The translations under genes and the position numbers were made by a program. The notes beneath the pieces are model-generated. The model had not been told where the DNA came from, did not search any database, and saw only the letters and a list, made by a program, of their open reading frames with translations. Positions 21,344 to 48,939 of a stretch of 64,000 nt of DNA are shown piece after piece (position 1 is the first letter of the stretch; each line of letters begins with the position of its first letter). Origin of the DNA: Gelidibacter salicanalis (lineage in GTDB: Bacteria; Bacteroidota; Bacteroidia; Flavobacteriales; Flavobacteriaceae). Location: NCBI RefSeq assembly GCF_016469035.1, contig NZ_JAEHJZ010000003.1:139882-203881 (forward strand). The letters are read 5' to 3'.

Positions 21344-21518
21344 AATGAACAACCTCGACCCAAGGATACGAGGTATCAAGTAGAAGTTCCTTTTTTATTT
21401 CGACGCAGAGCGTCGGGGAATAAAACCCAAGGATCCCGCTAAAAAGCGGGATTAGTTCAACTAACAATTTTTAATTCATTGCTTCGCAACTTTTAAAAAT
21501 TGAGTTTCACTAATTTAA
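21344..21518 (+). repeat. 175-bp structured repeat (copy 2)
   Basis: It differs from copies 3 and 4 by one base (A for G at position 22 of the element). Four inverted repeats are present at element positions 9-31, 58-72, 90-109 and 108-171. It ends 11 bp before the start codon of the MFS transporter gene. Confidence 0.95.
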
Positions 21519-21529
21519 CCAAACCAACA

Positions 21530-22762
21530 ATGAAAATTTTTAATTTCTTTTATTATTCTGTGGGGCAAGCTTATCTGAACACCTTCAGAGGACTGTCTAA
21601 AGAAGTCTGGTGGTTGGCGTTTATAACGCTTGTTAATAGAGCGGGCACCATGGTCATTCCATTTTTATCACTGTACCTCACCACTGACCTTAATTTTTCC
21701 TTGGATGATGTGGCTTGGATTATGACCGCCTTCGGTTTTGGCTCCTTAGTAGGGTCATGGATTGGTGGAAAACTAACAGATGTTATTGGATACTACAAGG
21801 TCATGGTTCTCAGTTTGGTGCTGAGCGGTGTACTGTTTCTGGGCATGCAATATCTTGAGACTTTTAATATGGTTTGTCTGGGTATTTTCGTCTTAATGGC
21901 TGTTGCGGACATGTTTAGACCAGCAATGTTTGTGGCGCTTAACGCGTATAGCAAACCAGAAAATAAAACCCGAAGCATCACATTAATACGGTTGGCCATC
22001 AATTTAGGATTTTCTGCAGGACCTGCGGTTGGCGGACTCATTATTACCACCATGAGTTATGGCGCCTTATTCTGGATAGATGGATTTTCGTGTATGATTG
22101 CTGGGTTTTTACTCCTGAAAGTTCTACATCCTAAAAAATCAAAAACCTTGGATACGGAGGTCAGTTCCAGTCCGCTATCGGCTTACACCGACAAATCTTT
22201 TATTATTTTTCTGGCAGCCATGGTGATCTTCGGAATTGTATTTTTACAATTAATTTCCACCATTCCATATTTTTACAAGGAAGGTGTCGGACTTACGGAA
22301 TTTGAGATCGGGCTACTCATGGCCATGAATGGACTTTTGATTTTTATCTTTGAAATGCCACTCATTAAATGGTTTGAAAACAAATCATATACTAAAATCG
22401 GATTGATGGTTTTTGGACTGATTTTGATTTGCATCAGTTTTCTATTTTTAATTATCGATCCATGGCTTGGTTTTGTTATTATTAGTATGATTTTATTGAC
22501 CTTTGGCGAAATGATTGTATTTCCGTTCTCAAATTCTTTTGCCTTAGATAGAGCAAAACGAGGATTGAAAGGAGAGTATATGGCATTGTATAGCATTGCC
22601 TTTTCAATAGCGCATATATTTGCACATAATGTGGGGTTTCATTTAATAGATGCATTAGGCTTTCATAAAACTTGGATCATCATGAGTGTTTTTGGACTGC
22701 TAGGCTTGGGACTTTTAATGTATCTTAAAAAACAAATAATCTCCACAAAACAGATAATTTAA
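21530..22762 (+). CDS. MFS transporter
   Basis: A 410-residue major facilitator with about 12 helices. The loop 2-3 signature appears as GSWIGGKLTDVIGYYKVM (near residue 71), matching the GxxxDRxGxR/K-type motif, and a related pattern recurs in the second half. Members export drugs or metabolites; the substrate is not predictable. The ATG at 21530 is chosen; the frame upstream runs into the 175-bp repeat and would add only residues encoded by the repeat tail. It is followed directly by the ypdA-like gene and is probably co-transcribed with it. Confidence 0.88.
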   Translation: MKIFNFFYYSVGQAYLNTFRGLSKEVWWLAFITLVNRAGTMVIPFLSLYLTTDLNFSLDDVAWIMTAFGFGSLVGSWIGGKLTDVIGYYKVMVLSLVLSGVLFLGMQYLETFNMVCLGIFVLMAVADMFRPAMFVALNAYSKPENKTRSITLIRLAINLGFSAGPAVGGLIITTMSYGALFWIDGFSCMIAGFLLLKVLHPKKSKTLDTEVSSSPLSAYTDKSFIIFLAAMVIFGIVFLQLISTIPYFYKEGVGLTEFEIGLLMAMNGLLIFIFEMPLIKWFENKSYTKIGLMVFGLILICISFLFLIIDPWLGFVIISMILLTFGEMIVFPFSNSFALDRAKRGLKGEYMALYSIAFSIAHIFAHNVGFHLIDALGFHKTWIIMSVFGLLGLGLLMYLKKQIISTKQII

Positions 22763-22763
22763 C

Positions 22764-23735
22764 ATGACAACAACATATAAAGTATTAATTATTGGCGCAG
22801 GACCTATTGGAATTGCCTGTGCCTTAGAGTGTAAAAAACAAAATTGGGACTATGTTGTGCTTGAAAAAGGGGCCTTGACCAATTCTCTTTTTAATTACCC
22901 GAAGAACATGACCTTCTTTTCTACATCAGAAAAGCTGGAAATTGACAACGTCCCTTTTATCAGTAACAATCCGAAGCCCAATAGAGATGAAGCGCTGGAA
23001 TACTACAGACGTGTTGCCACCTCAAATACGCTAAACATTCACTTGTACGAAGAGGTTAAATCTATTAAAAAGGTAGCGCATCAATTTGAAGTTACCTCTT
23101 CAAAATCCTCCTATCACGCTGACAAAGTTGTTATTGCCTCAGGCTTTTATGATATTCCGAAACTGTTGGATGTTCCTGGAGAATCGTTGCCAAAAGTGAC
23201 GCACTATTACAATGAAGCACACCCTTACGCTATGCAAGATGTGGTTGTGGTGGGTGCTAGCAATTCGGCAGTAGATGCAGCGCTTGAGATTTGGAGAAAG
23301 GGAGGACAAGTTACGATGGTTATAAGGGGGTCAGAAATTGGAGACCGTGTTAAATATTGGGTAAGACCGGATATTATTAACAGGATTAAGGAAGGAAGTA
23401 TTACTGCCCATTACAATGCAGAAATTGTCAAAGTTACAGAAAAAGACATCACCATCAACACACCAAAAGGTGAGCTTATCTTTGCCAATAGTTTTGTTGT
23501 GGCCTTGACTGGGTATCAACCCAATTTTAAGTTTTTAGTAGATGCAGGCATACACTTATCAGAAGACGAAGCGCAATTACCTCAATACAATCCAGAAACC
23601 ATGGAAACAAATGTACCAGGGTTATATTTGGCGGGTGTTATTTGTGGAGGTACAGAAACGCATAAGTGGTTTATTGAAAACTCAAGAATTCATGCAAAGT
23701 TAATTGCTGCGCATATTAAAAAGACAAACTCCTGA
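22764..23735 (+). CDS. ypdA: YpdA-family FAD/NADPH disulfide reductase
   Basis: A 323-residue flavoprotein. The FAD dinucleotide fold GAGPIGIACALE begins near residue 10 and the NADPH fold VVVGASNSAVDAALEIWRKG near residue 160. The pattern FNYPKNMTFFSTSEKLEID is typical of the YpdA (bacillithiol disulfide reductase) family. There is no CxxC redox motif, as in YpdA. The enzyme recycles low-molecular-weight disulfides in Firmicutes; Bacteroidetes members likely do the same for bacillithiol, which is inferred. It starts 1 bp after the MFS stop. Confidence 0.88.
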   Translation: MTTTYKVLIIGAGPIGIACALECKKQNWDYVVLEKGALTNSLFNYPKNMTFFSTSEKLEIDNVPFISNNPKPNRDEALEYYRRVATSNTLNIHLYEEVKSIKKVAHQFEVTSSKSSYHADKVVIASGFYDIPKLLDVPGESLPKVTHYYNEAHPYAMQDVVVVGASNSAVDAALEIWRKGGQVTMVIRGSEIGDRVKYWVRPDIINRIKEGSITAHYNAEIVKVTEKDITINTPKGELIFANSFVVALTGYQPNFKFLVDAGIHLSEDEAQLPQYNPETMETNVPGLYLAGVICGGTETHKWFIENSRIHAKLIAAHIKKTNS

Positions 23736-23754
23736 AAACCTGAGTTCTAAAAAA

Positions 23755-24198
23755 TTATTTTATTGGCCGGACTTCATTGTATTTGATCACATGGGATAAT
23801 ACAATCTGAGTTTTTGTTTCGCCATATACAATCAGTTGATCAATAAAGCTTTCTAAATGTTTCTGATTTTTCAGAACCACTTCCATAACGATGTTTTCAT
23901 TTCCCGTTATGCGATAGCAATTCAAGACTTCATCATAAGTCTTTACTTTTTCCAAAAATGGTTTGAGCATACCCATAAATGCCCTTAGAGTGATAATAGC
24001 CTTGAGTTGGTATCCTGCTTCGAACGGCGACACAAAAGCGTGATATCCTTGAATGATACCTGCATCTTCCATTTTTTTAATACGTTCAGAAACTGCAGGT
24101 GAACTCACACCTACTTGTCTTCCAATTTCAGCATTGGATTGACGCGCATTATTCTGTAAACACTTTAAAATCTTCCAACTAAGGGCATCTATACTCAT
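23755..24198 (-). CDS. Lrp/AsnC family transcriptional regulator
   Basis: A 147-residue regulator: an N-terminal helix-turn-helix (about 8-55, with NAEIGRQVGVSSPAVSERIKKME) and a C-terminal RAM ligand-binding domain (about 65-140). Lrp-like proteins bind amino acids and regulate their metabolism, often repressing themselves. A TATATTTG -7 element (24237-24244, minus strand) and a perfect 8-3-8 palindrome lie 38-65 bp upstream. The gene is convergent with ypdA and divergent from the four-helix-bundle-like gene. Confidence 0.93.
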   Translation of the reverse strand: MSIDALSWKILKCLQNNARQSNAEIGRQVGVSSPAVSERIKKMEDAGIIQGYHAFVSPFEAGYQLKAIITLRAFMGMLKPFLEKVKTYDEVLNCYRITGNENIVMEVVLKNQKHLESFIDQLIVYGETKTQIVLSHVIKYNEVRPIK

Positions 24199-24236
24199 TT
24201 TAAATAAAATTAACTAAAATGTTTTAATTATTAAAG

Positions 24237-24263
24237 CAAATATACGGTTTTACTTTAAAACCG
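24237..24263 (-). promoter_or_regulatory. Lrp-gene promoter -7 element with adjoining palindrome
   Basis: TATATTTG (24237-24244, minus strand) directly abuts the perfect inverted repeat CGGTTTTA-CTT-TAAAACCG (24245-24263). Its position between -7 and -33 fits an operator that blocks the promoter, possibly for autoregulation by the Lrp-like protein. No TTG -33 box is seen. Confidence 0.55.
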
Positions 24264-24317
24264 ATTATAATAGGTCTGAATTTGTCTGTAAATTTGATAA
24301 AATTGCTTTTCATAAAA

Positions 24318-24713
24318 ATGGTATACCCAATTCCATCGCATCTATCAGATTTGCCTATTTACAAAAAGGCCATGGATATTATTACCCTTTCCAGAAATAT
24401 ATCTACATATCTAAACCAAGATTTATCTTACTTAAAGCCAGACGGTTCTGAAGATCATCACATTTATTTCTCTGGTGATATCGTACAACAATCCACATCA
24501 TTGGCTCCAGAAATTGTCAATGCTGAACTAGAACGTCATTCTGATAAAAAATACAAACACATCGCTTCTTTGGAACGTTTGACGACCCTACTTTATAAAA
24601 ATTGCCGACGTTTAGAGAAAAGTCATAGTAATGGAAGAGATTATCTGCCCATTTTAAGAAGTGAATTGAAAAAATTCCGCCGATTACAGCATACGTGGAT
24701 GATGACGTTATAA
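24318..24713 (+). CDS. Hypothetical helical protein, distantly four-helix-bundle-like
   Basis: A 131-residue protein predicted to be nearly all helix. The opening LPIYKKAMDIITLSRNIS resembles the start of the S23/four-helix-bundle family (xVWQKAMxLxxxxY), and LAPEIVNAE sits where that family has IPSNIAEG, but the match is weak. The ATG at 24318 is used rather than the TTG at 24282. No reverse transcriptase or rRNA insertion is nearby, so a link to retroelements is not supported. Function unknown. Confidence 0.65.
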   Translation: MVYPIPSHLSDLPIYKKAMDIITLSRNISTYLNQDLSYLKPDGSEDHHIYFSGDIVQQSTSLAPEIVNAELERHSDKKYKHIASLERLTTLLYKNCRRLEKSHSNGRDYLPILRSELKKFRRLQHTWMMTL

Positions 24714-24761
24714 GATTCAAGAAATAAACACCACCTTTCAATATCTTGACTATGGGTTTGC

Positions 24762-25301
24762 TTAATGGCACACTTTACATTCCTCGCGTTCTTTCAACTC
24801 TCCTACCAAATATCCATCATTATTTATTTTAAAATCACAACATTCCACAAAGCCTTGTGAAATTAGTTTTCTACCACGTTGAATTTGAGATTTGACGGTT
24901 GGTAACGGCAGTTTTAAACGTTCAGATATTTGTGCTTGTTTGAGTCCTTGAATATCCGCTAGAATTAAAGGATTTCTGTATTTTTTAGGCAGGCTTTTAA
25001 TAATGCCACGCAAACAGTCTTCCTTAGTATGCTCGGCGGGCGCGTTGTCAGCAGGAATATGGTCTTCTGCTTGACTGCTAATGGACTGATGGTTTCTAAA
25101 ATAATCCATCACTGTGTGTCGTGCAATAGCAAATACCCAAGGTTTTAACTTAGTCTCATCGTGTAAGGTGTCTAATTTTACATGCACTTTGAGGAATGTT
25201 TCTTGGAGTAAATCATCAGTAGCCACATCGTCCTTGACCTTACCTAAAATAAAGTGTTTGATGTCTTCCGAATATAAATTCCATACCGCTTTTGTTTTCA
25301 T
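24762..25301 (-). CDS. SigZ-like RNA polymerase sigma factor with Cys-rich C-terminus
   Basis: A 179-residue group 4-like sigma factor. Region 2 is at about 10-75 (DDLLQETFLKVHVKLDTL, FAIARHTVMDYFRN) and region 4 at about 100-155 (SLPKKYRNPLILADIQGLKQ, LPLPTVKSQIQRGRKLI). The C-terminal tail of 25 residues has CC, then GELKEREECKVCH, a possible metal site of the kind seen in SigZ proteins. The start codon lies only 12 bases after the T-run of a strong terminator that ends the Cys-rich peptide gene upstream, so expression probably depends on read-through. Confidence 0.85.
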   Translation of the reverse strand: MKTKAVWNLYSEDIKHFILGKVKDDVATDDLLQETFLKVHVKLDTLHDETKLKPWVFAIARHTVMDYFRNHQSISSQAEDHIPADNAPAEHTKEDCLRGIIKSLPKKYRNPLILADIQGLKQAQISERLKLPLPTVKSQIQRGRKLISQGFVECCDFKINNDGYLVGELKEREECKVCH

Positions 25302-25316
25302 AAGAATGCATTAAAA

Positions 25317-25356
25317 AAGAGTCTACTTTAGTATAAAATTACTAAAATAGACTCTT
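25317..25356 (-). terminator. Strong terminator between the Cys-rich peptide and sigma factor genes
   Basis: A 17-bp stem (AAGAGTCTACTTTAGTA against TACTAAAATAGACTCTT, one mismatch) with a 6-base loop. On the minus strand it is followed by TTTTTT. The sigma factor ATG comes 12 bases later, which makes this a candidate control point. Confidence 0.85.
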
Positions 25357-25379
25357 ATTATTAACATTTTAAACTAAGC

Positions 25380-25481
25380 TTAACAGTTGCAGTTGTTGCA
25401 GGTACAATTTTCACAAGTACAAGCTGCACAATTTCCTTTTTGACAACTGTCGCAATTACATGCGCATTGGTTATTATTCAT
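25380..25481 (-). CDS. 33-residue Cys-rich metallothionein-like peptide
   Basis: A small gene easily missed by ORF callers. The product is 33 residues with 11 cysteines, arranged as repeated CxC and CxxC units (residues 6, 8, 10, 13, 18, 21, 23, 26, 28, 31, 33). It begins MNNNQCACNCDSCQ and ends CTCNNCNC. There is no signal peptide. The spacing is like that of metallothioneins, so it could bind zinc, copper or cadmium, but no known family is assigned with certainty. It ends 24 bases before the terminator and lies just upstream of the SigZ-like gene. Confidence 0.75.
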   Translation of the reverse strand: MNNNQCACNCDSCQKGNCAACTCENCTCNNCNC

Positions 25482-25507
25482 GATGTTTATTTTTTAGGTT
25501 CACCTAA

Positions 25508-25537
25508 TAGACGTGAAAAACTTAAAAAAGATGCATT
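25508..25537 (-). promoter_or_regulatory. Possible ECF-type promoter of the Cys-rich peptide gene
   Basis: On the minus strand, TGCATC is followed by 16 bases and CGTC, about 30 bases before the ATG at 25481. A CGTC -10 is typical of ECF sigma promoters, and the spacing equals that of the better-supported pair at 50.3-50.6 kb. The -35 does not match, so this is tentative. If real, the SigZ-like factor may drive its own operon. Confidence 0.3.
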
Positions 25538-25607
25538 TTGAATGGGTTTATTTTTTATTTGTGAAATTCTTGAAGATTTCGCTATTTAAATTAAGGTTAG
25601 AAATCTT

Positions 25608-25842
25608 GAGATCCCTTGATGTGGTGCGAGCAACTCACACCAGTTTTGCGGAATTTATATTCGGTTAAATATTTTACTTATCTTTCATGAGATCCTGCTG
25701 AAGGGCGGGATAAGCGACTCACACAAGTTTTGCGAAAAGGAAAATGTGGTTAAATGTGTCACTGATCTTTCATGAGATCCCGCTGAAGGGCGGGATAAGC
25801 GACTCACACAAGTTTTGCGAAAAGCAAAACTTGGTTCGCTGC
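25608..25842. repeat. Three imperfect tandem repeats of about 81-85 bp after icmF
   Basis: Units begin near 25608 (GAGATCC, degenerate), 25681 (TCTTTCATGAGATCCTGCTG) and 25766 (TCTTTCATGAGATCCCGCTG). The last two share long identical stretches, including AGGGCGGGATAAGCGACTCA and ACAAGTTTTGCGAAAAG, at a period of 85. The array runs to within a few bases of the icmF stop. Unit 3 contains a small GC stem (ATCCCGC/GCGGGAT). The remaining 25482-25607 is AT-rich non-coding DNA. Confidence 0.85.
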
Positions 25843-28800
25843 TTACATATTTCTCCTATACTGTCCTCCGACTTCAAAAAGCGCCCCTGTTATTTGACCC
25901 AATGAACATACTTTACTCACCTCCATTAAGGCTTCAAAAATATTCTCGTTATGGATGGCTTTATGCTGTAATTCTTGGAGTAAGTGGCCCGTATCATTTC
26001 CTTTATGCAGATTTTCAAGTGTGGCAATCTGGAATTGCTTCTCCTCCTCCGTTGCTCTAATCACTTCTTTCGGAATGACCGTTGGTGAGCCTTTACTGCT
26101 TAAAAATGTATTTACGCCAATAATAGGGAATTCACCATTATGCTTTAAGGTCTCATAATACAGGCTTTCTTCCTGTATTTTACTACGTTGGTACATCGTT
26201 TCCATTGCCCCAAGTACACCGCCTCTTTCTGTAATACGATCAAACTCCAATAACACCGCTTCTTCTACCAAATCGGTTAATTCTTCAATGATGAATGAGC
26301 CTTGGATTGGGTTTTCGTTCTTCGCCAAGCCTAATTCCTTATTAATAATCAATTGAATGGCCATGGCACGACGCACAGACTCCTCTGTAGGCGTTGTAAT
26401 GGCTTCATCATAAGCGTTTGTATGTAATGAGTTGCAGTTGTCATAAATAGCGTATAACGCTTGAAGCGTGGTGCGAATATCATTAAAATCAATCTCCTGC
26501 GCATGTAAACTACGCCCTGAAGTTTGGATATGGTATTTCAACATCTGCGCTCTCGGATCTGCATTATATTTATTTTTCATTGCTTTTGCCCATATCTTAC
26601 GGGCAACACGGCCAATAACCGCATATTCTGGATCGATACCATTTGAGAAGAAGAACGATAGATTGGGACCAAATTTATTGATATCCATCCCTCTGCTCAA
26701 ATAATACTCTACATAGGTAAATCCGTTGGATAAGGTCAATGCCAATTGGGTAATTGGATTCGCGCCTGCCTCGGCAATATGGTAGCCTGAAATAGACACT
26801 GAGTAGAAATTACGTACATTATTCTCAATAAAGTATTCCTGAACATCTCCCATCAATCGCAGAGCGAATTCAGTTGAAAAAATACAGGTATTTTGTGCTT
26901 GATCTTCTTTTAAAATATCCGCTTGAACCGTACCTCGTACTTGAGCGATCGTTTTGGTTTTGATGTCTTGGTACACGTCGTCTGGCAAAACTTGATCACC
27001 AGTAACCCCGAGCAACATCAATCCTAGTCCATCATTGGTTTCTGGCAAGTCGCCTTTATAGGTTGGACGCTCAACACCTTTCTCTTTATAGATTTTGGCA
27101 ATCTTTGCCTCCACCTCTTTTTCCAGTCCGTTTTCTTTGATATACAACTCACATTGTTGATCTATGGCAGCATTCATAAAGAAGCCTAACAACATTGGTG
27201 CAGGACCATTGATGGTCATACTTACCGAGGTCATGGCATGTGACAGATTGAATCCTGAGTACAATTTCTTAGCGTCGTCCAAACAGCAAATGCTGACACC
27301 TGCATTTCCTATCTTCCCATAAATATCAGGTCGTAAATCTGGGTCATTCCCATAAAGCGTTACACTGTCAAATGCTGTCGATAAGCGTTTGGCCGGCAAG
27401 CCCATGCTCACATAATGGAAACGTCTGTTGGTTCGTTCTGGTCCACCTTCGCCAGCAAACATACGCGCAGGATCTTCACCCGTGCGTTTAAAAGGATACA
27501 GTCCTGAGGTAAACGGAAATTCCCCAGGTACATTTTCTTGCAGGATCCATCTTAAAATATCGCCCCAAGCCTGGTATTTGGGCAATGCTACTTTAGGAAT
27601 CTTAGTATGGGAAAGTGACTCCGTATGGGTTTCAATTTTTATCTCTTTACCTCTGACCTTAAACGAATATATAGGATTTTTATACGTGTTGACCTTTTCA
27701 TCCCAGCCCGTTATAACCGCCCAATTGTAAGGATCAAGATTTAATTTAACACGATCAAATTCGCCCACCAATAACTTGACAAAATCCTTATGGGCATCGG
27801 CAACAGACGCGATTGAATTACTATCTATCCCTGCTTTATCCAATTCTGGCGTTTTGCCAAGTACAGATTCTAATGTTTTATAAATGCCGTAGAGTTTTTG
27901 TGCTACTTCTACTTGGTCGTTTGCAGTTTTATCGTAAGCGCGGTTGCTCTCTGCTATTTCAGAAAGGTAACGTGTTCTAGCTGGTGGAATGACGAAAATC
28001 TTTTCGCTCATTTCTTTCGAAATGGTAAAGGTCGATTTTAAATCGGCGTTTGTTTTTTCAACAATCCCATCCATGATCGCTTTGTAAAGCGTGTTCATTC
28101 CTGGATCATTAAATTGTGAGGCAATCGTTCCAAAAACCGGTAAATCACTCTGATCGACATCCCACAGTTGGTGGTTGCGCATGTATTGTTTTTTAACATC
28201 GCGCAAAGCATCCAAAGAACCGCGTTTATCAAATTTGTTAATGGCTACCAAATCGGCAAAATCGAGCATGTCAATTTTTTCCAATTGGGTGGCAGCACCA
28301 AATTCTGGTGTCATCACGTAAAGAGAGACATCAGAATGTTCTATAATTTCAGTATCTGACTGACCAATACCTGAAGTTTCTAAAATGATCAAATCGTATT
28401 CCGCAGCTTTCAACACCTGAATAGCTTCGTTCACATATTTAGAAAGAGCCAAATTGGACTGACGGGTTGCCAAACTACGCATATAGACCCGCGGACTATT
28501 GATGGCATTCATACGAATACGATCGCCAAGTAGTGCTCCACCTGTTTTACGTTTTGAAGGATCCACAGAAATTAAACCGACAGTCTTTTCTGGGAAATCA
28601 ATCAAAAATCGACGAACCAATTCATCTACTAATGACGATTTACCAGCACCTCCAGTTCCTGTAATTCCGAGTACAGGCGTTTTAGAGTCTTTATTTTTTA
28701 TGTGAATTTTATCAAGTGTAGCTTTTGCAACCTCTGGAAAGTTTTCTGCGGAAGAAATGATTCTTCCTATAGCTTTGGGATTTTTTTTCTCTAAATCTCC

Positions 28801-33709: not shown

Positions 33710-33908
33710 CAATAATTTCTCAATTTTAATTAGGAATTTTTAGTACGGACTAAAGAAAATCATGATGAAATAGCCGCTTTCATCTGCTGGTTATAAATTA
33801 AAGCCAGTGTTCCTAAAACACGTTTTTAGGTTATATTTGAAAGAAAGTAACGCAATTGGGTTTTATATTGAGCTCGATAAAAGGTTGAGAATACCATAAC
33901 AATTCGTT

Positions 33909-34274
33909 ATGAATGCGCTACTTAGCCTCTTTTCAAAATGGAGTATCACTAAAATAAATGTTCAAAAATTTCGTTTTGTCGTTATGATACACCGCTTGGG
34001 AGCCATCTTCTTATTTTATAGACCCTATTTTGTATGGTCCATGACGATCAATATTTTGATTGTCATTTTCAATCCCTATATTTTACCGAGTATCATTACA
34101 AAACTTCTTTTGACCTTTTTTGTATGGTATTTGGTGCACGAAACCGGCGCCAAACGCAAATTGCTTTTTTATAAAAATTTAGGCATTTCGACATGGCGGT
34201 TATTTACAACACTTTTTTTTATTGACATTACTATAACCATTACCTTTCTGCTCCTAATGAAAGTGTTTGTATGA
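33909..34274 (+). CDS. Small membrane protein paired with an ABC ATPase
   Basis: A 121-residue protein with three or four hydrophobic segments (about 20-40, 45-62, 64-82 and 97-119) separated by basic residues. I recognise no family. It overlaps the next gene, an orphan ABC ATPase, by 4 bp, so translation is probably coupled. It is too short to be a normal ABC permease half. It may be a membrane anchor or partner for the ATPase; this is inference. Confidence 0.65.
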   Translation: MNALLSLFSKWSITKINVQKFRFVVMIHRLGAIFLFYRPYFVWSMTINILIVIFNPYILPSIITKLLLTFFVWYLVHETGAKRKLLFYKNLGISTWRLFTTLFFIDITITITFLLLMKVFV

Positions 34275-38825: not shown

Positions 38826-38856
38826 TAAGCGGGCTTTTAACGGTTTAGACTAGGTG

Positions 38857-40641: not shown

Positions 40642-40676
40642 TAACGCGCATTTAAAGAACCTATAAAACGCAAAAA

Positions 40677-40696: not shown

Positions 40697-40727
40697 CTCC
40701 TGCGATTTGTAAATTTAATTCTTAAAA

Positions 40728-42914
40728 CTAGTTTGTAAACAACAATTCACGGTATTTTGTCATTGGCCAAATTTCATCATCGACCAACAATTCTAATTTA
40801 TCACAATGGTAACGGATGCTATCAAAAAGCGGTTTTACCTTAAAACAATAGTCATGTGCTTTTTGCTCAAAATCCTCCAACAGGTTCGCTGTTCTTCTCT
40901 CATCTGTCATTCTAGTGACATCAGAATTTATGGATGAGATATGCCCTGAAATGTCTTCAATCAAATTCAGCTGCTCTTGTGCGAATTTTTTGAATCCTGC
41001 ACCGTATATTTCTTTTAGGCCCACTACATTTTTAATCAATCTATTTTGGTACTGCACCGCAATTGGTACAATGTGATTACGAGCTATATCTCCCAACACA
41101 CGCCCTTCAATTTGAATGCGCATAACGTAATCTTCCATTTCAATCTCGTAACGCGCTTCAGATTCTACCTTATTCATAACGCCCATATCTTCAAAAAGCT
41201 TAATTGATTTTTTAGACACCTTAGCTTTTAAAGCTTCAGGAGTTGTTCTATGATTGCTTAATCCACGCTTTTTAGCTTCCTTTTCCCAAGCCTCACCATA
41301 ACCATTGCCTTCAAATAAGATTTTTTTGGAATTTTTGATGTATTCTCTCAAAACATTGAAAATGGCATCATCTTTTTTCATTTCCTTTTTCTTGATCAAC
41401 TGATCCACTTCAACTTTAAAATCAGTCAATTGTTTTGCTACGATGGTATTTAAAACGGTCATCGGATTCCCGCAATTGGCAGTCGACCCTACAGCTCGAA
41501 ATTCAAATTTATTCCCTGTAAAGGCAAAAGGAGAAGTTCTGTTTCTATCTGTATTATCCAATAAAACATCCGGAATTTTGCCAACCACGTTTAACTTTAG
41601 ATCGGTTTTTTCCTGTGGTGATAATTTTCCGTTGGTTACATTTTCCAATTCATTCAATACGTTGGTCAATTGTTCACCTATAAAAATCGACATAATGGCG
41701 GGCGGTGCTTCATTTGCTCCCAATCTATGATCATTGCCCGCAGAGGCTATTGCAGCCCTTAGCAGCTCTTCGTTGTCATTTACCGCTTTAATTGTGTTGA
41801 TAAAGAAGGTCAAGAACTGTAAGTTGCTCATTGGCGTTTTTCCCGGACCTAATAAATTGATCCCCGTATCCGTACTCAAACTCCAGTTATTGTGCTTCCC
41901 TGAACCATTGACACCGGCAAATGGTTTTTCGTGGAATAACACTTTAAAATTGTGACGTTCTGAAACTTTGTCCATCACATCCATTAACAGCGAATTATGA
42001 TCTACCGCTAAATTAGCTTCATCAAAAATAGGTGCCAATTCAAATTGGTTTGGAGCTACTTCATTATGTCTCGTTTTTACTGGTATCCCCAAAAGCATAC
42101 ACTCCGTTTCAAGATCCCTCATATAGGCTAAAGCTCTTGCTGGAATAGATCCAAAATAATGGTCGTCCAACTGCTGTCCTTTGGCTGCAGAATGCCCCAA
42201 CAGGGTGCGCCCAGTTTGTACGATATCAGGTCTTGAAGCTGCAAGGGCACTGTCAATTAAGAAATATTCTTGCTCCCAACCCAAAGAAGTGTTCACTTTT
42301 TTTACATTTTTGTCAAAATACTTACACACGGCAACCGCTGCAGTATCCATAGCAAATAGCGCTCTTAGTAGAGGTGTTTTAAAATCTAAAGCTTCTCCGG
42401 TATAGGAGACAAAAACTGTTGGAATGCACAATGCTGTCCCGTATATAAACGCTGGAGATGTTGGATCCCATGCGGTATATCCACGTGCTTCAAAGGTATT
42501 TCGGATCCCACCATTAGGAAAACTTGAAGCATCAGGTTCTTGTTGAACTAATTGAGAACCTCCAAATTTTTCTATAGCCAATCCGTTTCCTATTGTTTCA
42601 AAAAACGCATCGTGCTTTTCAGCAGTAGAACCTGTTAAAGGCTGAAACCAGTGCGTGTAATGTGTAGCGCCTTTTGAAATGGCCCATTCTTTCATTCCTG
42701 TAGAAATATGATCGGCAACAGAGCGGTCTATTTTTGTTCCATTCTGCATGGCAGCCATAACGCTGTTAAACGCTTCTTTTGTAAGAAACTGACGCATGGT
42801 TGCCTCATTGAAGACATTTCTTCCAAACAGTTCTGAGCGCCGTTCTTTTTCTTCAATATGAACAGGTTTACGATCAAGAGTTTTTTTAATTGCGTGGAAA
42901 CGTAGAGTTGACAT
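40728..42914 (-). CDS. glnN: Glutamine synthetase type III
   Basis: A 728-residue GSIII, the large glutamine synthetase of Bacteroidetes and cyanobacteria; it condenses glutamate and ammonia using ATP. The N-terminal GSIII-specific domain leads to the catalytic part. FAGVNGSGKHNNWSLSTD near residue 325 and GNDHRLGANEAPPAIMSIF near 390 are the expected glutamate and ATP-site segments. NRTSPFAFTGNKFEFRAVGS near 460 follows. The C-terminal helical part is typical. It has a full promoter and a palindrome just upstream. Monocistronic. Confidence 0.95.
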   Translation of the reverse strand: MSTLRFHAIKKTLDRKPVHIEEKERRSELFGRNVFNEATMRQFLTKEAFNSVMAAMQNGTKIDRSVADHISTGMKEWAISKGATHYTHWFQPLTGSTAEKHDAFFETIGNGLAIEKFGGSQLVQQEPDASSFPNGGIRNTFEARGYTAWDPTSPAFIYGTALCIPTVFVSYTGEALDFKTPLLRALFAMDTAAVAVCKYFDKNVKKVNTSLGWEQEYFLIDSALAASRPDIVQTGRTLLGHSAAKGQQLDDHYFGSIPARALAYMRDLETECMLLGIPVKTRHNEVAPNQFELAPIFDEANLAVDHNSLLMDVMDKVSERHNFKVLFHEKPFAGVNGSGKHNNWSLSTDTGINLLGPGKTPMSNLQFLTFFINTIKAVNDNEELLRAAIASAGNDHRLGANEAPPAIMSIFIGEQLTNVLNELENVTNGKLSPQEKTDLKLNVVGKIPDVLLDNTDRNRTSPFAFTGNKFEFRAVGSTANCGNPMTVLNTIVAKQLTDFKVEVDQLIKKKEMKKDDAIFNVLREYIKNSKKILFEGNGYGEAWEKEAKKRGLSNHRTTPEALKAKVSKKSIKLFEDMGVMNKVESEARYEIEMEDYVMRIQIEGRVLGDIARNHIVPIAVQYQNRLIKNVVGLKEIYGAGFKKFAQEQLNLIEDISGHISSINSDVTRMTDERRTANLLEDFEQKAHDYCFKVKPLFDSIRYHCDKLELLVDDEIWPMTKYRELLFTN

Positions 42915-42942
42915 AATTATATATTTTAATTAAATTATGCCT

Positions 42943-42996
42943 CAAAAGTATAAAAAAATGATTTAAAACAAGATCATACCCTAAAAAATTTAGGGT
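42943..42996 (-). promoter_or_regulatory. Promoter of the glutamine synthetase gene with upstream palindrome
   Basis: On the minus strand there is a TTG at 42969-42971, an 18-base spacer and TACTTTTG at 42943-42950. Just upstream lies the perfect dyad ACCCTAAA-AAA-TTTAGGGT (42978-42996), well placed for a nitrogen-status regulator. The regulator is unknown. Confidence 0.7.
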
Positions 42997-43035
42997 GTTG
43001 TCACAATAATTATGATATTCGCAACAATACCCCCT

Positions 43036-43989
43036 CTAATTTTCGATATAGAACGCTAAAAATATAAAAACGAGATAGCCGGATAATAATATAAACCCCT
43101 TTAACCTTCCTATCTCAAATTTTTTAGGCAATAAAATCATTGGAATTAAAATAAAGGCAAAAGCAATCATCCAAAGCATATCACTGCCCAAAATTTGAGG
43201 ATTATTGACGGCTATGGGTTGTATCATGGCAGTAATACCAAGTACGGAGGCGATATTAAATATATTGGATCCTATTAAATTCCCCAAAGAAATGGCTTTC
43301 TCTTTCTTAAGTGCTGCAATAACAGATGCCGCCAACTCAGGAACACTGGTGCCAATAGCTACCATAGTTACCGAAATTACCCGTTCACTGACCCCAAAAG
43401 AAAGGGCCATCTCTTTAGCCCCAAAAACCAACCATTCACTTCCAAAATAAAGTGCTGCACCCCCAATCAATAACCAAACTGTAATTTTAAACCCTGAGGT
43501 TACCTGCAAGGTGTCGTCAACATCATCAATTCCCGTTTCTGGCGCATTCCTTGAACGTCTGATCAATACCACAAGAAAAATAATAATGGAAACAAACAAC
43601 GCGGCCCCTTCCCATCGGTCAAGAATGTTGCCACTTTGCAGCATAAAATAAAGCACAATAGAGAGCAACATCATCATTGGCCAATTTATTTTATAAAAAT
43701 TCTTATCCACTCCCAATGGCGAAATAAGCGCCGTAATACCCAATACCAAACCAATATTGGCAATATTTGACCCAATTACATTACCTAAAGAAATATCTGA
43801 CGCCCCATCCAAAGCTGCTTGTAAACTCACCAAGAGTTCTGGTGCAGAGGTCGCGAAAGATACCACTGTCATACCTATGACGAGTTTGGAGATATTAAAT
43901 TTAAACGATAGCGCCACAGAAGAACGTACTAAAAATTCGCCACCTACTACCAAGAGAATTAAACCTAAAAGGACCCAGACAATACTCAT
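43036..43989 (-). CDS. Calcium/sodium antiporter (YrbG family)
   Basis: A 317-residue membrane protein with about ten helices and the two inverted alpha-repeat motifs of the CaCA family: SFATSAPELLVSL and GNVIGSNIANIGLVLG in the first half, GTSVPELAASV and GNLIGSNIFNIASVLG in the second. These exchange cytoplasmic Ca2+ for Na+ or H+. The start at 43989 (MSIVWVLLGLILLVVGG) is used; the longer frame from 44085 has no membrane character. Monocistronic. Confidence 0.92.
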   Translation of the reverse strand: MSIVWVLLGLILLVVGGEFLVRSSVALSFKFNISKLVIGMTVVSFATSAPELLVSLQAALDGASDISLGNVIGSNIANIGLVLGITALISPLGVDKNFYKINWPMMMLLSIVLYFMLQSGNILDRWEGAALFVSIIIFLVVLIRRSRNAPETGIDDVDDTLQVTSGFKITVWLLIGGAALYFGSEWLVFGAKEMALSFGVSERVISVTMVAIGTSVPELAASVIAALKKEKAISLGNLIGSNIFNIASVLGITAMIQPIAVNNPQILGSDMLWMIAFAFILIPMILLPKKFEIGRLKGFILLSGYLVFIFLAFYIEN

Positions 43990-44179
43990 AAATATTTTTT
44001 TTTGCGAAGATACTATATTCGAATTATGTGGGATGCATTGTGGTTTAGGAATCTTTAAAATTCTTAGTACCGACAAAAACAACACGCTAACCGTGGTCCT
44101 ATGGCGTGCTATAATACTTATGCAACCTCAACACATCTGTATTACAACTATTATTTAAGTTAAATAACTAGAATGACAG

Positions 44180-44208
44180 TTGTATAACTACAAAAATAGT
44201 TATATTTG
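44180..44208 (+). promoter_or_regulatory. Promoter and operator dyads of the BlaI/BlaR1-like operon
   Basis: A TTG (44180-44182) plus 18 bases and TATATTTG (44201-44208) form a consensus promoter. Two overlapping dyads cover it: TTGTA-TAAC-TACAA (44180-44193), with the TGTA/TACA elements known for BlaI/MecI operators, and TATAACTA-N6-TAGTTATA (44183-44204). Self-repression by the BlaI-like product is the likely use. A half-site (TAACTA) lies at 44165-44170. Confidence 0.75.
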
Positions 44209-44256
44209 AATTTCATTAGAGTATTAAGGTATCCATTGCAACTTAAAAAATTGACC

Positions 44257-44652
44257 ATGCAGAAGCTCACCAACAAAGAAGAAGAAATTATGCACATTAT
44301 ATGGAGGCTGGAAAAAGCCTTCGTAAAAGATGTGCTCGCAGCAATCACAGACGATCAGCCACACTATAACACCTTATCAACCATCATCAGGAATTTGGAG
44401 GATAAAGGCTATGTCAGTTATCATGCCTATGGAAAAACCCATCAGTACTACCCTGTTATTAGTAAAGAAGCCTATAAAAAGCGATTTATGAGCACCGCAA
44501 TTGAGAATTACTTTAATAATTCTTATAAAAATGTGGTTTCATTTTTTGCTAAGGAAGAAAAAATAAGTGTTGATGAACTTAAAGAAATCATAGCGCTTAT
44601 TGAAACAAAAAATCGTGACGACGCCAAGTCCGAAAAATCCAACACCCTCTAA
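44257..44652 (+). CDS. BlaI/MecI-family transcriptional repressor
   Basis: A 131-residue winged helix-turn-helix repressor. LTNKEEEIMHIIWRLEKAFVKDV opens the DNA-binding domain, and HYNTLSTIIRNLEDKGYVSYHAYGK is the recognition helix and wing. The rest (about 80-131) is the dimerisation part. The start at 44257 is chosen because the -7 element at 44201-44208 overlaps the longer frame. It is followed 2 bp later by a BlaR1-like peptidase gene, the classic sensor/repressor pair, and its promoter carries BlaI-like dyads. Confidence 0.92.
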   Translation: MQKLTNKEEEIMHIIWRLEKAFVKDVLAAITDDQPHYNTLSTIIRNLEDKGYVSYHAYGKTHQYYPVISKEAYKKRFMSTAIENYFNNSYKNVVSFFAKEEKISVDELKEIIALIETKNRDDAKSEKSNTL

Positions 44653-44654
44653 TT

Positions 44655-46424
44655 ATGGAATACGTATTTAAAGCAAGCGCCATATTGTCCATATTTTACA
44701 TCTGTTACCGCTTGTTTTTACAGCGGGAAACCTTTTATGATGCCAACCGATGGTTTTTATTATTAGGATTAATGACTTCTGCCCTATTGCCATTGATGGT
44801 GATTCCTGTGTATATAGAGGTTCCAATGACGCCCAACACTGGCTTTGCGGCTGTGGCCACCACCACGCAACATCGTCCTGAAGTTTTTGATGTGACTTCA
44901 CTATTTATTTGGGGGTATGCCATTGGTGCAAGTTTTTTTTTAGGGAGATTTATTCTTCAGCTCTTTTCAATAACTACCCTTATCAAAAAACATAATAAGA
45001 AAAAAACAGCCCCTTATACCTTTATCGAAACTGCGCAAGTCAGCACTCCATTTTCGTTCTTTAACTGGATTGTTTATAATCCAACCCAATTTGATGCCCA
45101 AGAACTTGATCTCATTTTACAGCACGAAAAAGTACATGCAGAACAAAAGCACAGTGTGGATGTTCTCCTTATTGATTTAACAACCGCTCTGTTTTGGTGC
45201 AACCCCTTGATATGGCTGTACAGAAAATCACTTAAGCAAAATTTGGAATTTATTGCCGATCACCAAACCCAGAAACAATCGCGCTGTAAAGAACGCTATC
45301 AAAAATTACTGCTTAAAACCAGCGTGCCTGAAGAGAAATTAATCAGCATTAATCCTTTTTATAATTCAACAATCAAAAAACGAATCGTTATGTTACACAA
45401 ATCAAAATCAAACCTTATGAACACTTGGAAATACAGTATTATTGTGCCATTATTGGCCATCTTCGCCCTCACATTCAATACCGAAACAATTGCCCAGACC
45501 ACTTCTGAGAAAGACCCATCAACTACTACCAGTGATCAACAGAACATCTTAAAATTTGTCGTTACAAAAGACACTAAGGACAAACAGTTGGATTTTATAA
45601 AGGAAAAACTTGCCGAAAAAGAGGCGGTCATTTCTTTTGACGACCTGGAGAGAAACGCCAAAGATGAGATTACCGGTATCAAAATTAAGTATGACTATAA
45701 AGACAAAGTTGTAACGTATTCAAAGAAGCTATCGCATCCTATTCCGTCTATTGAGATTTCAATGAACCCCTCAAACCATAGTATTAACATAGGTGATCAG
45801 ACATCAGCATTAAGTCAAATTTTTGATGTTGAAACGGATGAAAAAGAACACACTAAACTGTCAAAGTCCAATTCTGACCCTAAAGAAGATTCTTTCCTTA
45901 TTATTGCCAATAAACTTAACAATAATACGGGAAGTAAAGACACGGTATTTATTCAAAACACAACCGATAAAGTCAACAACATCTACACCATTGACGATGA
46001 CGGTAAAGTAAAAGGAGTTAGAAAATCAGATCATAAAACTCAGGTATTCAACAATCAGAAAAACAAACCATTAATCATTGTTAATGGCAAGGAAATTACA
46101 GACCAGCAAATGAAGGCTATCGACCCCAACACTATTGCCTCTGTAAACGTGCTAAAGGATGACAAGGTCACAAAAAACTATGGCAAAAAAGGTGAATACG
46201 GCGTCATTATAATTAAACTTAAAAACACCACCGCAACTTCTGATCTAAAAAAAGAACCACTATACATTCTAGATGGTAAAGAAATTAGCAAAGAAAAAAT
46301 GGAGGCTGTCAGCCCAGATAGCATTGAATATATTGATATCTTAAAAGACAACGATGCTACAAAAAAATATGGTGCTAAGGGTGAAAATGGCGTCGTCATC
46401 ATCAGCACAAAAAAGACAGACTAA
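44655..46424 (+). CDS. BlaR1-like M56 membrane metallopeptidase with two TonB-plug-like repeats
   Basis: A 589-residue sensor peptidase. The N-terminus has three or four membrane helices and the zinc-peptidase motif HEKVH (157-161); LEFIADHQTQ follows, with the possible third ligand. A further helix lies near 254-272 (STEIAQ end). The C-terminal half is not a beta-lactamase-type sensor. It holds a charged linker, then two copies of a plug-like unit: PLIIVNGKEITDQQMKAIDP with KNYGKKGEYGVIII (about 478-528), and PLYILDGKEISKEKMEAVSP with KKYGAKGENGVVII (about 538-587). Confidence 0.85.
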   Translation: MEYVFKASAILSIFYICYRLFLQRETFYDANRWFLLLGLMTSALLPLMVIPVYIEVPMTPNTGFAAVATTTQHRPEVFDVTSLFIWGYAIGASFFLGRFILQLFSITTLIKKHNKKKTAPYTFIETAQVSTPFSFFNWIVYNPTQFDAQELDLILQHEKVHAEQKHSVDVLLIDLTTALFWCNPLIWLYRKSLKQNLEFIADHQTQKQSRCKERYQKLLLKTSVPEEKLISINPFYNSTIKKRIVMLHKSKSNLMNTWKYSIIVPLLAIFALTFNTETIAQTTSEKDPSTTTSDQQNILKFVVTKDTKDKQLDFIKEKLAEKEAVISFDDLERNAKDEITGIKIKYDYKDKVVTYSKKLSHPIPSIEISMNPSNHSINIGDQTSALSQIFDVETDEKEHTKLSKSNSDPKEDSFLIIANKLNNNTGSKDTVFIQNTTDKVNNIYTIDDDGKVKGVRKSDHKTQVFNNQKNKPLIIVNGKEITDQQMKAIDPNTIASVNVLKDDKVTKNYGKKGEYGVIIIKLKNTTATSDLKKEPLYILDGKEISKEKMEAVSPDSIEYIDILKDNDATKKYGAKGENGVVIISTKKTD

Positions 46425-46444
46425 GAGATTTTTAATCTGGTATT

Positions 46445-46506
46445 CTGAGCGGAGCGAAAGCATCAATTTAGTATAAATGATGTTTCTGACTCCGCTCAAT
46501 TTTTTA
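46445..46506 (+). terminator. Terminator after the BlaR1-like gene
   Basis: A long imperfect hairpin: TGAGCGGAG...CATCA against TGATG...CTCCGCTCA, followed by TTTTTT. The GAGCGGAG arms belong to a common flavobacterial intergenic repeat. Confidence 0.65.
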
Positions 46507-47109
46507 CTGAGAAATCGGATGTTATTTCAGTATCAATTGCGCTGCAGGGCATTAACTAAATCTACCCTCTTGTGGATCAATCGTTATCTGTTCTTTCACC
46601 AGATAAATCCGTCTTTAAAAGTTTATAAAAAAGACGAAATTGTCAATTTTCGCAACTTTACAAACAAAAACAGCCTAAGAATTTTAAAAGCCCTCAAAAT
46701 AAGCCCTTAGATTATTACACAATTAAAGCTATATAACCATTTATAATTTCAATTTATTATAATATTATAGAGACATCTATAAATTCTGAAACAATTATTA
46801 TTGTTTTAGTTATAAATTTAAAGTCAAATTCATTAATAACGTCCTAAGTATTTGGATTATAGTTTACAAATCATATATCTTGAAAGAACAATTGCAATTT
46901 AGCACTATATATGAACCTTTTAAACACTACGCTCATGATCACAATTGTCAAAATTATAATCGATATTATTTTCTCGATTAGCTAAATCAAAACACTAAGT
47001 AAAACTCAGTTCTAGAATGAGTTTTAGCTTAGTATTAGCATTCGTCTATAATTGTCAATTTTAGAGCGTTAAATTTTTATCTTTGTTGTTCACGCAATTA
47101 AGGATCTTC
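46507..47109. other. AT-rich non-coding gap
   Basis: About 600 bp without a supported gene. It has a short stem, AAAACTCA/TGAGTTTT, at 47001-47025 and the promoter of the next gene near its right end. A 77-codon frame at 46477-46710 has no coding character and begins inside the terminator hairpin, so it is rejected. Otherwise I see nothing. Confidence 0.6.
47052..47085 (+). promoter_or_regulatory. Promoter of the 50-residue protein gene
   Basis: TTG (47052-47054), a 23-base spacer, then TATCTTTG (47078-47085), 24 bp before the ATG at 47110. It fits the Bacteroidetes consensus at the long end of the spacer range. Confidence 0.55.
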
Positions 47110-47262
47110 ATGAAAACAAACTTCTTCAAATTTTTGGCAAAGATCAATAAGGCAGTACTACCAAGTTATTCAAAGAAAGGCCTAGATCTCTCTAAAGCCT
47201 CCAAATTAGAAATGGCCATTATTGGATGGCGGGTATTTGTTACCAAACAAGCTCTCGAATGA
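47110..47262 (+). CDS. 50-residue conserved flavobacterial protein (often called SsrA-binding protein)
   Basis: A small basic protein, MKTNFFKFLAKINKAVLPSY at the start and IIGWRVFVTKQALE at the end. Short proteins of this pattern (LPSYSKKGLDLSKASK, then AIIGWR) are common in flavobacteria; from memory they are often labelled SsrA-binding protein, although they lack the SmpB fold. True function is unknown. Its TGA stop overlaps the first bases of the 175-bp repeat (copy 3). A consensus promoter lies upstream. Confidence 0.75.
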   Translation: MKTNFFKFLAKINKAVLPSYSKKGLDLSKASKLEMAIIGWRVFVTKQALE

Positions 47263-47432
47263 ACAACCTCGACCCAAGGGTACGAGGTATCAAGTAGAAG
47301 TTCCTTTTTTATTTCGACGCAGAGCGTCGGGGAATAAAACCCAAGGATCCCGCTAAAAAGCGGGATTAGTTCAACTAACAATTTTTAATTCATTGCTTCG
47401 CAACTTTTAAAAATTGAGTTTCACTAATTTAA
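47258..47432 (+). repeat. 175-bp structured repeat (copy 3)
   Basis: Identical to copy 4. It begins within the stop of the 50-residue gene (AATGAAC contains the TGA). Stems: ACCTCG/CGAGGT (9-31), CGACGC/GCGTCG (58-72), ATCCCGC/GCGGGAT (90-109), and a nested 3' stem ATTAGT/ACTAAT with CAATTTTTAA/TTAAAAATTG and TTGC/GCAA inside. It ends 62 bp before the DEAD-box start. Confidence 0.95.
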
Positions 47433-47451
47433 ACCTAAACCCATCTACAAA

Positions 47452-47478
47452 TTGCCACTATATTTTCTGCTATCTTTG
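47452..47478 (+). promoter_or_regulatory. Promoter of the DEAD-box helicase gene
   Basis: TTG (47452-47454), a 16-base spacer, then TATCTTTG (47471-47478), 17 bp before the start codon. It lies just after repeat copy 3 and independently of it. Confidence 0.65.
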
Positions 47479-47494
47479 CAAAAAATTATTAACA

Positions 47495-48736
47495 ATGTCA
47501 TTTAAGGACTTACAGCTCAACAAACCTATTTTAAAAGCAGTGGCCGAATCTGGTTACGACACCCCTACCTTAGTACAAGAACAAACCATCCCGTTAGTTT
47601 TGGCAGGGAAAGATGTTATTGCTTCAGCACAAACCGGTACCGGAAAAACGGCTGCATTTGCACTACCCATTTTGCAACTTCTTTTTGATAAGCAAGAGGG
47701 ATCAAAAAAAGGCAAAAAAATAAGAGCCCTGATTATCAGTCCCACCCGAGAACTTGCCATTCAAATTGCCCAGAATTTTAAAACCTACAGTGCGCATACC
47801 AATTTGCAAACCATGGTTGTTTTTGGAGGTGCATCTATTGAACCTCAAATTGATCTTCTTAAAAAAGGTGTCGATATTGTAATTGCCACCCCAGGACGTC
47901 TACTGGATTTGCATAAACAAGATCTCATTAATTTAGATTATATCGAAACCTTGGTATTGGATGAAGCTGATTTGATGCTTGATATGGGTTTTATTGATGA
48001 AGTGACAAAAATTGTACGCTTGTGTCCTGAAGGCAAACAGACCTTATTATTTTCGGCAACCATGCCTTTTAAAGTGGAACAATTGGCGACTTCCATATTA
48101 AAATCTGCAGAGCGTGTTGAAGTAACTCCTACCTCATCTGCCGCCAAAAACGTGAGCCAAGTATTGTATTATGTTCCAAAACAAAATAAGATTGAGCTGT
48201 GTCTACATCTTTTAAGAAATACCATTAAAGGCAATATCTTAATTTTTAGGCGGACGAAGTTTGGCGTAGACAAATTAGAACAAACCTTACTCAAAAATGG
48301 CTATAAAGTAGAAAGCTTTCATGGCGATAAAACCCAAAGCGACCGACAGGCGGCTTTAGGCAAATTCAAACACGGCGAAGCTAATATTTTAATTGCTACA
48401 GATGTTGCGGCAAGAGGTATTGATATTGAGGAGTTGGATGCCGTGGTTAATTTTGATATGCCCAACGTCCCTGAAACCTATGTGCACCGTATTGGTAGAA
48501 CCGGACGTGCGGAACATTTTGGCAACTCCTTCTCTTTTTGTTCTGCCGATGAAAAACCATATGTAAAAAGTATACAGCAACTGATCAACACACAAATTCC
48601 TGTAGAAGATGATCACCCTTACCCATTGGATCCACATGCGAAACCTATAATTCACACCTCTAAAAAAACGGGCAGTAAACACAAAAAAGGACGTAAAGGG
48701 CAAGGTTCTAAAAGCAATAAAAAGCGTTGGTACTAA
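47495..48736 (+). CDS. DEAD-box RNA helicase
   Basis: A 413-residue ATP-dependent RNA helicase. The motifs are complete: Q-motif near residue 22, AQTGTGKT (motif I), PTRELAIQ (Ia), TPGR (Ib), VLDEADLML (II), SATMP (III), LIFRRTKFGVD (IV), TDVAARGIDIEEL (V) and VHRIGRTGR (VI). The C-terminus is short and basic (KKTGSKHKKGRKGQ), as in RhlE-type enzymes that act on rRNA or mRNA. The start at 47495 is chosen because the promoter -7 element overlaps the longer frame. The gene lies between two direct copies of the 175-bp repeat. Confidence 0.95.
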   Translation: MSFKDLQLNKPILKAVAESGYDTPTLVQEQTIPLVLAGKDVIASAQTGTGKTAAFALPILQLLFDKQEGSKKGKKIRALIISPTRELAIQIAQNFKTYSAHTNLQTMVVFGGASIEPQIDLLKKGVDIVIATPGRLLDLHKQDLINLDYIETLVLDEADLMLDMGFIDEVTKIVRLCPEGKQTLLFSATMPFKVEQLATSILKSAERVEVTPTSSAAKNVSQVLYYVPKQNKIELCLHLLRNTIKGNILIFRRTKFGVDKLEQTLLKNGYKVESFHGDKTQSDRQAALGKFKHGEANILIATDVAARGIDIEELDAVVNFDMPNVPETYVHRIGRTGRAEHFGNSFSFCSADEKPYVKSIQQLINTQIPVEDDHPYPLDPHAKPIIHTSKKTGSKHKKGRKGQGSKSNKKRWY

Positions 48737-48764
48737 AACGCTTGCTGTTTGGGGTTATACGTAG

Positions 48765-48939
48765 AATGAACAACCTCGACCCAAGGGTACGAGGTATCAA
48801 GTAGAAGTTCCTTTTTTATTTCGACGCAGAGCGTCGGGGAATAAAACCCAAGGATCCCGCTAAAAAGCGGGATTAGTTCAACTAACAATTTTTAATTCAT
48901 TGCTTCGCAACTTTTAAAAATTGAGTTTCACTAATTTAA
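48765..48939 (+). repeat. 175-bp structured repeat (copy 4)
   Basis: Identical to copy 3 over all 175 bases, same orientation, 1507 bp apart. It ends 12 bp before the start codon of the SMR exporter gene. Confidence 0.95.

Follow-up and report, generated by a model that had tools for sequence, protein, structure and literature searches.

A dispersed four-hairpin repeat of Gelidibacter salicanalis as a probable non-autonomous, chimeric relative of IS200/IS605 elements

A 175-bp repeat recurs in a 64,000-nucleotide stretch of the Gelidibacter salicanalis genome (the whole of this stretch is called the window below). With a probability that we put at about 0.9, it belongs to the IS200/IS605 insertion sequence (IS) family as a non-autonomous, palindrome-only member, i.e., a homogeneous palindrome-associated transposable element (PATE), the left end of which has been replaced by a separate structured repeat, module B. 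Sequence comparison provided its boundaries, target and empty sites, its homology to autonomous elements, its strand bias and its chimeric make-up. The original prediction for this DNA had offered two ideas, a mobile non-coding element or a control element of 5'-untranslated regions (5'-UTRs); the former is borne out here and refined to a PATE of the IS200/IS605 family.

Coordinates and alignment confirmed that the repeat is real, with three complete 175-bp copies, of which those at 47258 and 48765 are identical and that at 21344 differs by one base. The first 32 nt of the window, previously read as the tail of another copy, do belong to one: the whole fourth copy, interrupted by an 'NN' assembly gap, occupies contig positions C220:139734-139913 (the window begins at C220:139882). 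The copies are listed below in window positions of the printed strand; by the top strand we mean the reverse complement of the printed strand.

1..32, + strand, 3' end of the fourth copy, clipped by the window edge, with the remainder at C220:139734-139881
21344..21518, + strand, complete element of 175 bp, TTTAA target included, a single base off the other two, 11 nt before an open reading frame (ORF) of the major facilitator superfamily (MFS)
47258..47432, + strand, complete 175-bp element, the reference copy, its orthologous place empty in all nine same-genus genomes compared
48765..48939, + strand, complete 175-bp element, same as the 47258 copy, 12 nt before an ORF of the small multidrug resistance (SMR) type

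The source genome is a draft of 5.16 Mb in 682 contigs. The genome-wide search proposed with the original prediction returned 43 BLAST rows, 32 of them at 97% identity or more and 18 full length at 99-100%; with split rows merged and gap-broken copies added, 45 places are known. A flank of each of three contig-end copies recurs at another copy, and these three are possible assembly duplicates; at least six contigs terminate inside a copy. Internal length variants were considered as deletion derivatives, an explanation that was rejected because the large losses adjoin 'NN', i.e., scaffold gaps.

The ends of the element, AATGAACAACC... and ...GTTTCACTAA, are by inspection not inverted copies of each other. 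Palindromes lie near both termini, hairpin 1 about 9 nt and hairpin 4 about 11 nt from the respective ends. The 35 distinct right junctions of the printed strand read TTTAA (31), TTAAA (3) or TTTAC (1), the last being that of the fourth copy, in which TTTAC follows CTAA. The base after this target was A in 23 of 35 cases, with nothing fixed further out. On the left, the only trait common to 39 distinct flanks was a last base of A or T (35/39). At 175 bp the element could hold at most 58 codons, and its longest stop-free runs were 32 and 42 codons, one frame having been checked on each strand.

Relatives within the genus were used to view insertion sites without the element. The 47258 insertion was missing from all nine of them, the matches to its two flanks either overlapping or lying no more than 34 bp apart; genomes G007 and G002 carry TTAAA once at this place and no element. 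At locus L094, the site of insertion L094a is empty in G003, G008 and G009 (TTTAA once), and that of L094b, for which the flanks were joined with the target and then aligned, is empty in G008 (TTTAA) and in G003 and G009 (ATTAA). Thus, at three insertion sites, viewed in five relative genomes in all, the target-like string is single. Junctions and empty sites together indicate an insertion without target duplication or terminal inverted repeats, in which the target lies on one side only. Insertion L094a (L094 9692-9849; G001:C19:191482-191656) is common to two species, and the G001 copy is 95% like the reference, compared with 83% for its flanks, which suggests that the copies have been homogenised or that each species acquired its insertion independently at this target.

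Transposase-bearing relatives were sought by means of the right end. The right end of our element recurs without a mismatch (34 of 34 nt) in an intact IS200 element of Algibacter that encodes a Y1 transposase. A further right-end relative, in G015 (86% over 36 nt), adjoins the 3' end of a 148-aa IS200-like tnpA, the product of which matches Pfam Y1_Tnp (E 6e-34) as well as the ISDra2 and ISHp608 TnpA structures in PDB. The TnpA of the autonomous relative, P0001, has the motifs DHVH, FWTSG and YVQGQ; the class motifs are given in a passage of PMC6006769 as DH[VI]H / W[TS] / Y[IV]ENQ, and the third of ours fits Y[IV]ENQ in part. When 199 family genomes were searched with the G015 protein, 14 had matches at E 1e-15 or better.

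A right-end pattern scan of named genomes yielded 38 places in 36 stretches. Full-length tnpA matches accompanied six of these (Tenacibaculum twice, Algibacter, Lutibacter, Lacinutrix and a Flavobacteriaceae bin) and partial ones another ten, mostly at contig ends. The 22 places without tnpA comprised 16 two-hairpin elements of about 99 nt, five somewhat longer gene-less elements and one four-hairpin chimera, that of G. salicanalis. All six full-length elements have a left end of the CCCCGA(C/T)GC type and not module B; one of the two Tenacibaculum elements, the single case measured there, spans 544 bp including the target. Among the 26 readable left junctions other than that of the chimera, 23 read TTTAA, with CTTAA, ATTAA and TTTAG occurring once each. 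As regards the terminal palindromes akin to IS200/IS605 elements by which PATEs are recognised, our element has an identical right end and, at the left end, a hairpin 4 unrelated in sequence, the remnant of the IS200 left hairpin being internal.

The element folds far better than its shuffled versions (z -6.6 and -7.0 as RNA or DNA, with none of 200 shuffles equal) and holds about four stem-loops, in agreement with the four described earlier. Its parts in the reference copy are as follows.

47258..47342, - strand, module A, 85 nt, akin to the two-hairpin PATE of other Flavobacteriaceae (89%), bears the right end
47267..47287, - strand, hairpin 1, the right-end hairpin of the IS200 subfamily, followed on the top strand by TTGTTCATT, the 3' end of the element
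47315..47329, - strand, hairpin 2, what is left of the ancestral left-end hairpin of the IS200 element, top strand CCCCGACGC..GCGTCG
47344..47427, + strand, module B, match to model R1 at 99.8 bits, a structured repeat in its own right that comprises hairpins 3 and 4 and forms the present left end
47347..47366, + strand, hairpin 3, ATCCCGC..GCGGGAT
47379..47416, + strand, hairpin 4, 11 nt from the target, the distance also seen for the left-end hairpin of intact IS200 elements
47428..47432, + strand, target TTTAA (TTAAA on the top strand), kept once; TTTAA-like string at the empty sites of relatives

Along top-strand positions 91-175, 85 nt align at 89% with a two-hairpin PATE 99 nt long. The differing outer 90 nt comprise the target and module B, in which the printed strand runs from hairpin 3 through TAGTTCAACTA and hairpin 4 to GTTTCACTAA. 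By these alignments the element is chimeric, with half from a two-hairpin PATE and half from the independent repeat module B; another hairpin repeat, widely distributed in this family, has apparently taken the place of one end. The distance from hairpin to target is 11 nt in the chimera (hairpin 4) and 11 nt in intact IS200 elements, as against 19 nt in the two-hairpin PATE.

Strand preference was analyzed for 40 of the 45 places. Positive GC skew marks the leading strand, and strands were assigned on this assumption. The printed strand was on the negative-skew side in 32 of 40 copies by raw skew and likewise in 32 of 40, a different 32, by gene-balanced third-position skew; leaving out the three possible assembly duplicates gave 30/37 and 29/37, respectively. 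Pairs of copies on the same contig agreed in orientation in 30 of 35 cases (permutation p 0.001). A printed strand on the negative-skew side places the top strand, which is the tnpA-coding strand in intact relatives, on the lagging-strand template. Passages in PMC6006769 and PMC7290912 name this template as the preferred substrate of IS608 and ISDra2; according to the latter source, again in a passage, another IS605 survey saw no strand bias in its genome, with 10 of 22 on the leading strand.

From these features we infer movement in trans. A Y1 (HUH) TnpA supplied from elsewhere would bind the hairpins at both ends while the DNA is single-stranded during replication and cut out the top strand, which would then be joined 3' of a TTAAA/TTTAA target in the lagging-strand template; no target duplication would arise, and the target would be retained at the left end only. 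The ancestor would have been a two-hairpin PATE, with hairpins 1 and 2 derived from the IS200 right and left ends, the outermost left end of which may have been swapped for module B. Hairpin 4 would then take over as the left-end hairpin recognized by TnpA, at the spacing seen in intact IS200 elements.

Several observations weigh against this account. An intact TnpA of the matching subfamily was not found in the species' own draft genome, where two pieces of one degenerate copy with five stops (C325:199228-199632) account for two of the three TnpA matches and a gene of 30% identity for the third; the remaining Y1 genes that were inspected fall into different subfamilies and do not have these ends. 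The usual top-strand target of the chimera is TTAAA, compared with TTTAA in intact IS200 elements, and the 19-nt spacing of the two-hairpin PATE means that the spacing argument is not absolute. Eight of 40 copies have the opposite skew, and the 40 skew values are not all independent, as copies in one stretch share a value. With respect to empty sites, the 47258 junction is too diverged to be read in G005 and G008, the 48765 site shows ATTTAA near the place in G005 only (G007 and G008 being too diverged), and no match to the 21344 site was found among the compared loci. The L094a copy is less diverged than its flanks, and simple vertical descent predicts more divergence.

Two other origins were considered for the repeat. 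It is very improbable that it is a repetitive extragenic palindrome (REP/REPIN-type element) moved by a domesticated TnpA-REP, i.e., a REP-associated tyrosine transposase (RAYT), and not by an IS200 transposase. REPs are likewise hairpin repeats tied to Y1 enzymes, and the genus has several Y1 genes with REP-like hairpins alongside. However, an intact IS200 element that itself carries tnpA has an identical right end, and within the genus the ends of our element were absent from every Y1 locus scanned (flanks of 18 of these loci viewed); the Y1 genes of the genome and genus that were checked for these ends gave nothing beyond chance one-mismatch partial strings. The rule for REP/RAYT systems, as given in a passage of PMC6006769, is a GTAG or GTGG 0-2 nt 5' of the hairpin foot; by inspection, both are absent from the top strand, and the printed strand has one GTAG, which lies away from the feet of hairpins 1-4. 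Alternatively, there may have been no fusion, with module B being the true left end of an unseen autonomous element and the two-hairpin PATEs its deletion derivatives. Consistent with this, module B is seen by eye to be joined to right-end-like hairpins in other genera (G059, G169) and is widespread, with matches at E 1e-4 in 25 of 149 genomes of the family. We nevertheless consider it unlikely, given the uniform left ends of the six full-length elements with this right end, the location of most of the lone module B sites examined at A-runs and terminator-like folds and not at TTTAA, and the scarcity of Y1 genes beside module B. No Y1 partner of module B was found among 9702 ORFs of at least 40 codons (L041-L067, L083-L122, L251-L338 and the window, with L339-L378 excluded), in which a Y1 model matched the IS200 gene of L057 and, weakly, one long ORF of L122, and no others.

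Module B was also characterized on its own. Covariation, one of the checks suggested earlier for the stems, was assessed in 14 aligned module B relatives, where the outer helix of hairpin 4 showed changes on both sides at 8 of 8 pairs; four of five covariation measures exceeded all 500 shuffles, the exception being further pair types, for which 313 of 500 shuffles were as high. The module B model matched in all 10 genomes of the genus, with 3 to 71 matches each, composites included; as limited candidates per genome were scored in this and the family-wide search, both counts are lower bounds. Within the window, a weak module-B-like sequence without module A is tentatively assigned as follows.

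33870..33952, + strand, weak module-B-like sequence, 29.8 bits, E 0.002

Module B also occurs in tandem arrays, and in the single array read fully the last unit alone ends in GTTTCACTAA. Two other tandem repeats were seen in the window. At 25608-25840, an array of 85-bp units contains a GATCCCGC hairpin along with another one, AAGTTTTGCGAAAAGCAAAACTT; it resembles a module B array in build and has a different sequence; at 62522-62798, three 97-bp units with TTCGACTGCGCTCAGGATAAACTTC and a AAAAAACCTCTCGAAAAGAGAGGTTTTTT terminator-like hairpin adjoin a tRNA gene (62801-62874, - strand).

In order to describe where module B resides, 60 loci were picked from the listed matches in the genus: five had no end recognisable by pattern and were excluded (3/40 in an earlier pass), one had a TTTAA/TTAAA target, and 54 had other surroundings. 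A run of at least four A began within 3 nt after module B at 45 of the 54 sites (in the earlier pass, 30/37 sites compared with 37/349 in the background). The next 50 nt, read towards module B, folded in a terminator-like manner, with a median of -14.8 kcal/mol compared with -4.9 kcal/mol at unrelated CACTAA sites of the species' own genome (Mann-Whitney p 1e-20, the sites not being independent). Detection of terminators by perfect inverted repeats proved too strict (12/37 sites, background 6/349) and was replaced by folding energy. By downstream flank, the 54 sites represent 31 loci, some common to up to six species, and one terminator can bear different module B subtypes in different species (L282, L286 and L289 are among these loci). 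At these three loci and others, the covarying repeat of about 82 nt immediately follows the T-tract of a terminator-like hairpin, and the places occupied are orthologous among species of the genus. Module B may be a family-wide mobile or homing repeat of about 82 nt that settles behind terminator T-tracts and can be captured by IS200-derived PATEs as an exchangeable left end, a proposal that we put forward tentatively and at less than even odds.

The position of the copies relative to genes was examined with ORFs from a simple script, for which start codons are approximate. The 21344 and 48765 copies had been described as ending 11-12 bp before the starts of MFS and SMR exporters, and the ORFs concerned do match Pfam MFS_1 at 11 nt and Multi_Drug_Res at 12 nt; the 47258 copy lies 62 nt before a DEAD-box helicase ORF. 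The reported absence of a TAnnTTTG promoter was likewise corroborated on both strands of the element. By contrast, the statement that the 3' end always faces a plus-strand gene did not extend to the genome, where 32 of 40 copies examined had a downstream ORF in the available sequence, 20 codirectional and 12 opposed. Among 2643 intergenic TTTAA/TTAAA sites, 56% were codirectional. The proposed tabulation of orientation and distance gave a codirectional share close to this background. It did give an excess at start codons, with 6 of 32 copies lying 10-15 nt before a codirectional start, compared with 89 of 2643 background sites (3.4%); this excess is modest and post hoc, the distance window having been picked after seeing the data. 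The TTTAA target is itself most frequent 10-12 nt before starts, which in part accounts for the spacing of the copies.

A cis-regulatory 5'-UTR element or portable leader, spread through that function, would fit this excess and the strong folding of the element. We consider it highly unlikely, since the gene is opposed in 12 of 32 cases and the 20 of 32 codirectional cases are close to the background, the target alone peaks just before starts, no TAnnTTTG motif is present, orientation tracks GC skew, and with it replication, in 32 of the 40 copies examined, and transposition accounts for both sequence and junctions. Nor was any known RNA family found on the element at the Rfam gathering score, the window giving a tRNA only. 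A permissive Rfam search of five other loci gave three matches, every one under its gathering score; one of these, BSnc120 (E 0.00054; 32.4 bits, the cut-off being 114), lies partly over module B of L048. A regulatory role is not supported.

Among known systems, the PATEs of Haloquadratum walsbyi, as portrayed in parts of PMC3119063, share with the G. salicanalis element the lack of terminal inverted repeats and of target duplication, near-terminal palindromes, a kinship of palindromes with IS605-type elements (at the terminal positions of ours, that of the right end), a length too short for a transposase, and growth of one type to many near-identical copies. Here, however, the host is a flavobacterium, the related element is an IS200 element, and there are four hairpins, two of them from an unrelated repeat at the left end. 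Likenesses to IS608 and ISDra2, as described in passages of PMC7290912 and PMC6006769, are a Y1 TnpA (here in relatives), hairpins just inside the ends, a short fixed target 3' of which the element inserts and which stays at the left end, and preference for the lagging-strand template; unlike those elements, ours has no gene inside, and its left-end hairpin is unrelated in sequence to that of its intact relatives. REP/REPIN elements with TnpA-REP (RAYT) are also short hairpin repeats with many copies and Y1 enzymes, whereas the present element has no GTAG/GTGG guide on the top strand, transposon-like defined ends and a right end identical to that of IS200. A description of the element or of module B was not found in the titles and abstract openings of open-licence PMC papers.

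Other Y1 genes were noted in the genus. At L162-L165, a different transposase subfamily with the motifs DHVH/WQ/YIxxQKEHH is flanked by GCCCTGAAAGGGC REP-like hairpins; these motifs resemble subclass 1.2, which in a passage of PMC6006769 appears to be listed without associated hairpins. At L174 (G004:C8:138053-138382), a Y1_Tnp match lies within a 1276-aa open frame.

Taken together, an unexplained hairpin repeat can now be read as a probable mobile element with defined boundaries, a target, a strand preference and named transposase-bearing relatives. It is also a repeat that breaks assemblies, as the contig ends within its copies attest. If the chimeric left end is accepted by TnpA, the left-end hairpin of an IS200 element would be replaceable by an unrelated hairpin, and if module B does serve as an exchangeable left end, such PATEs would evolve by swapping ends.

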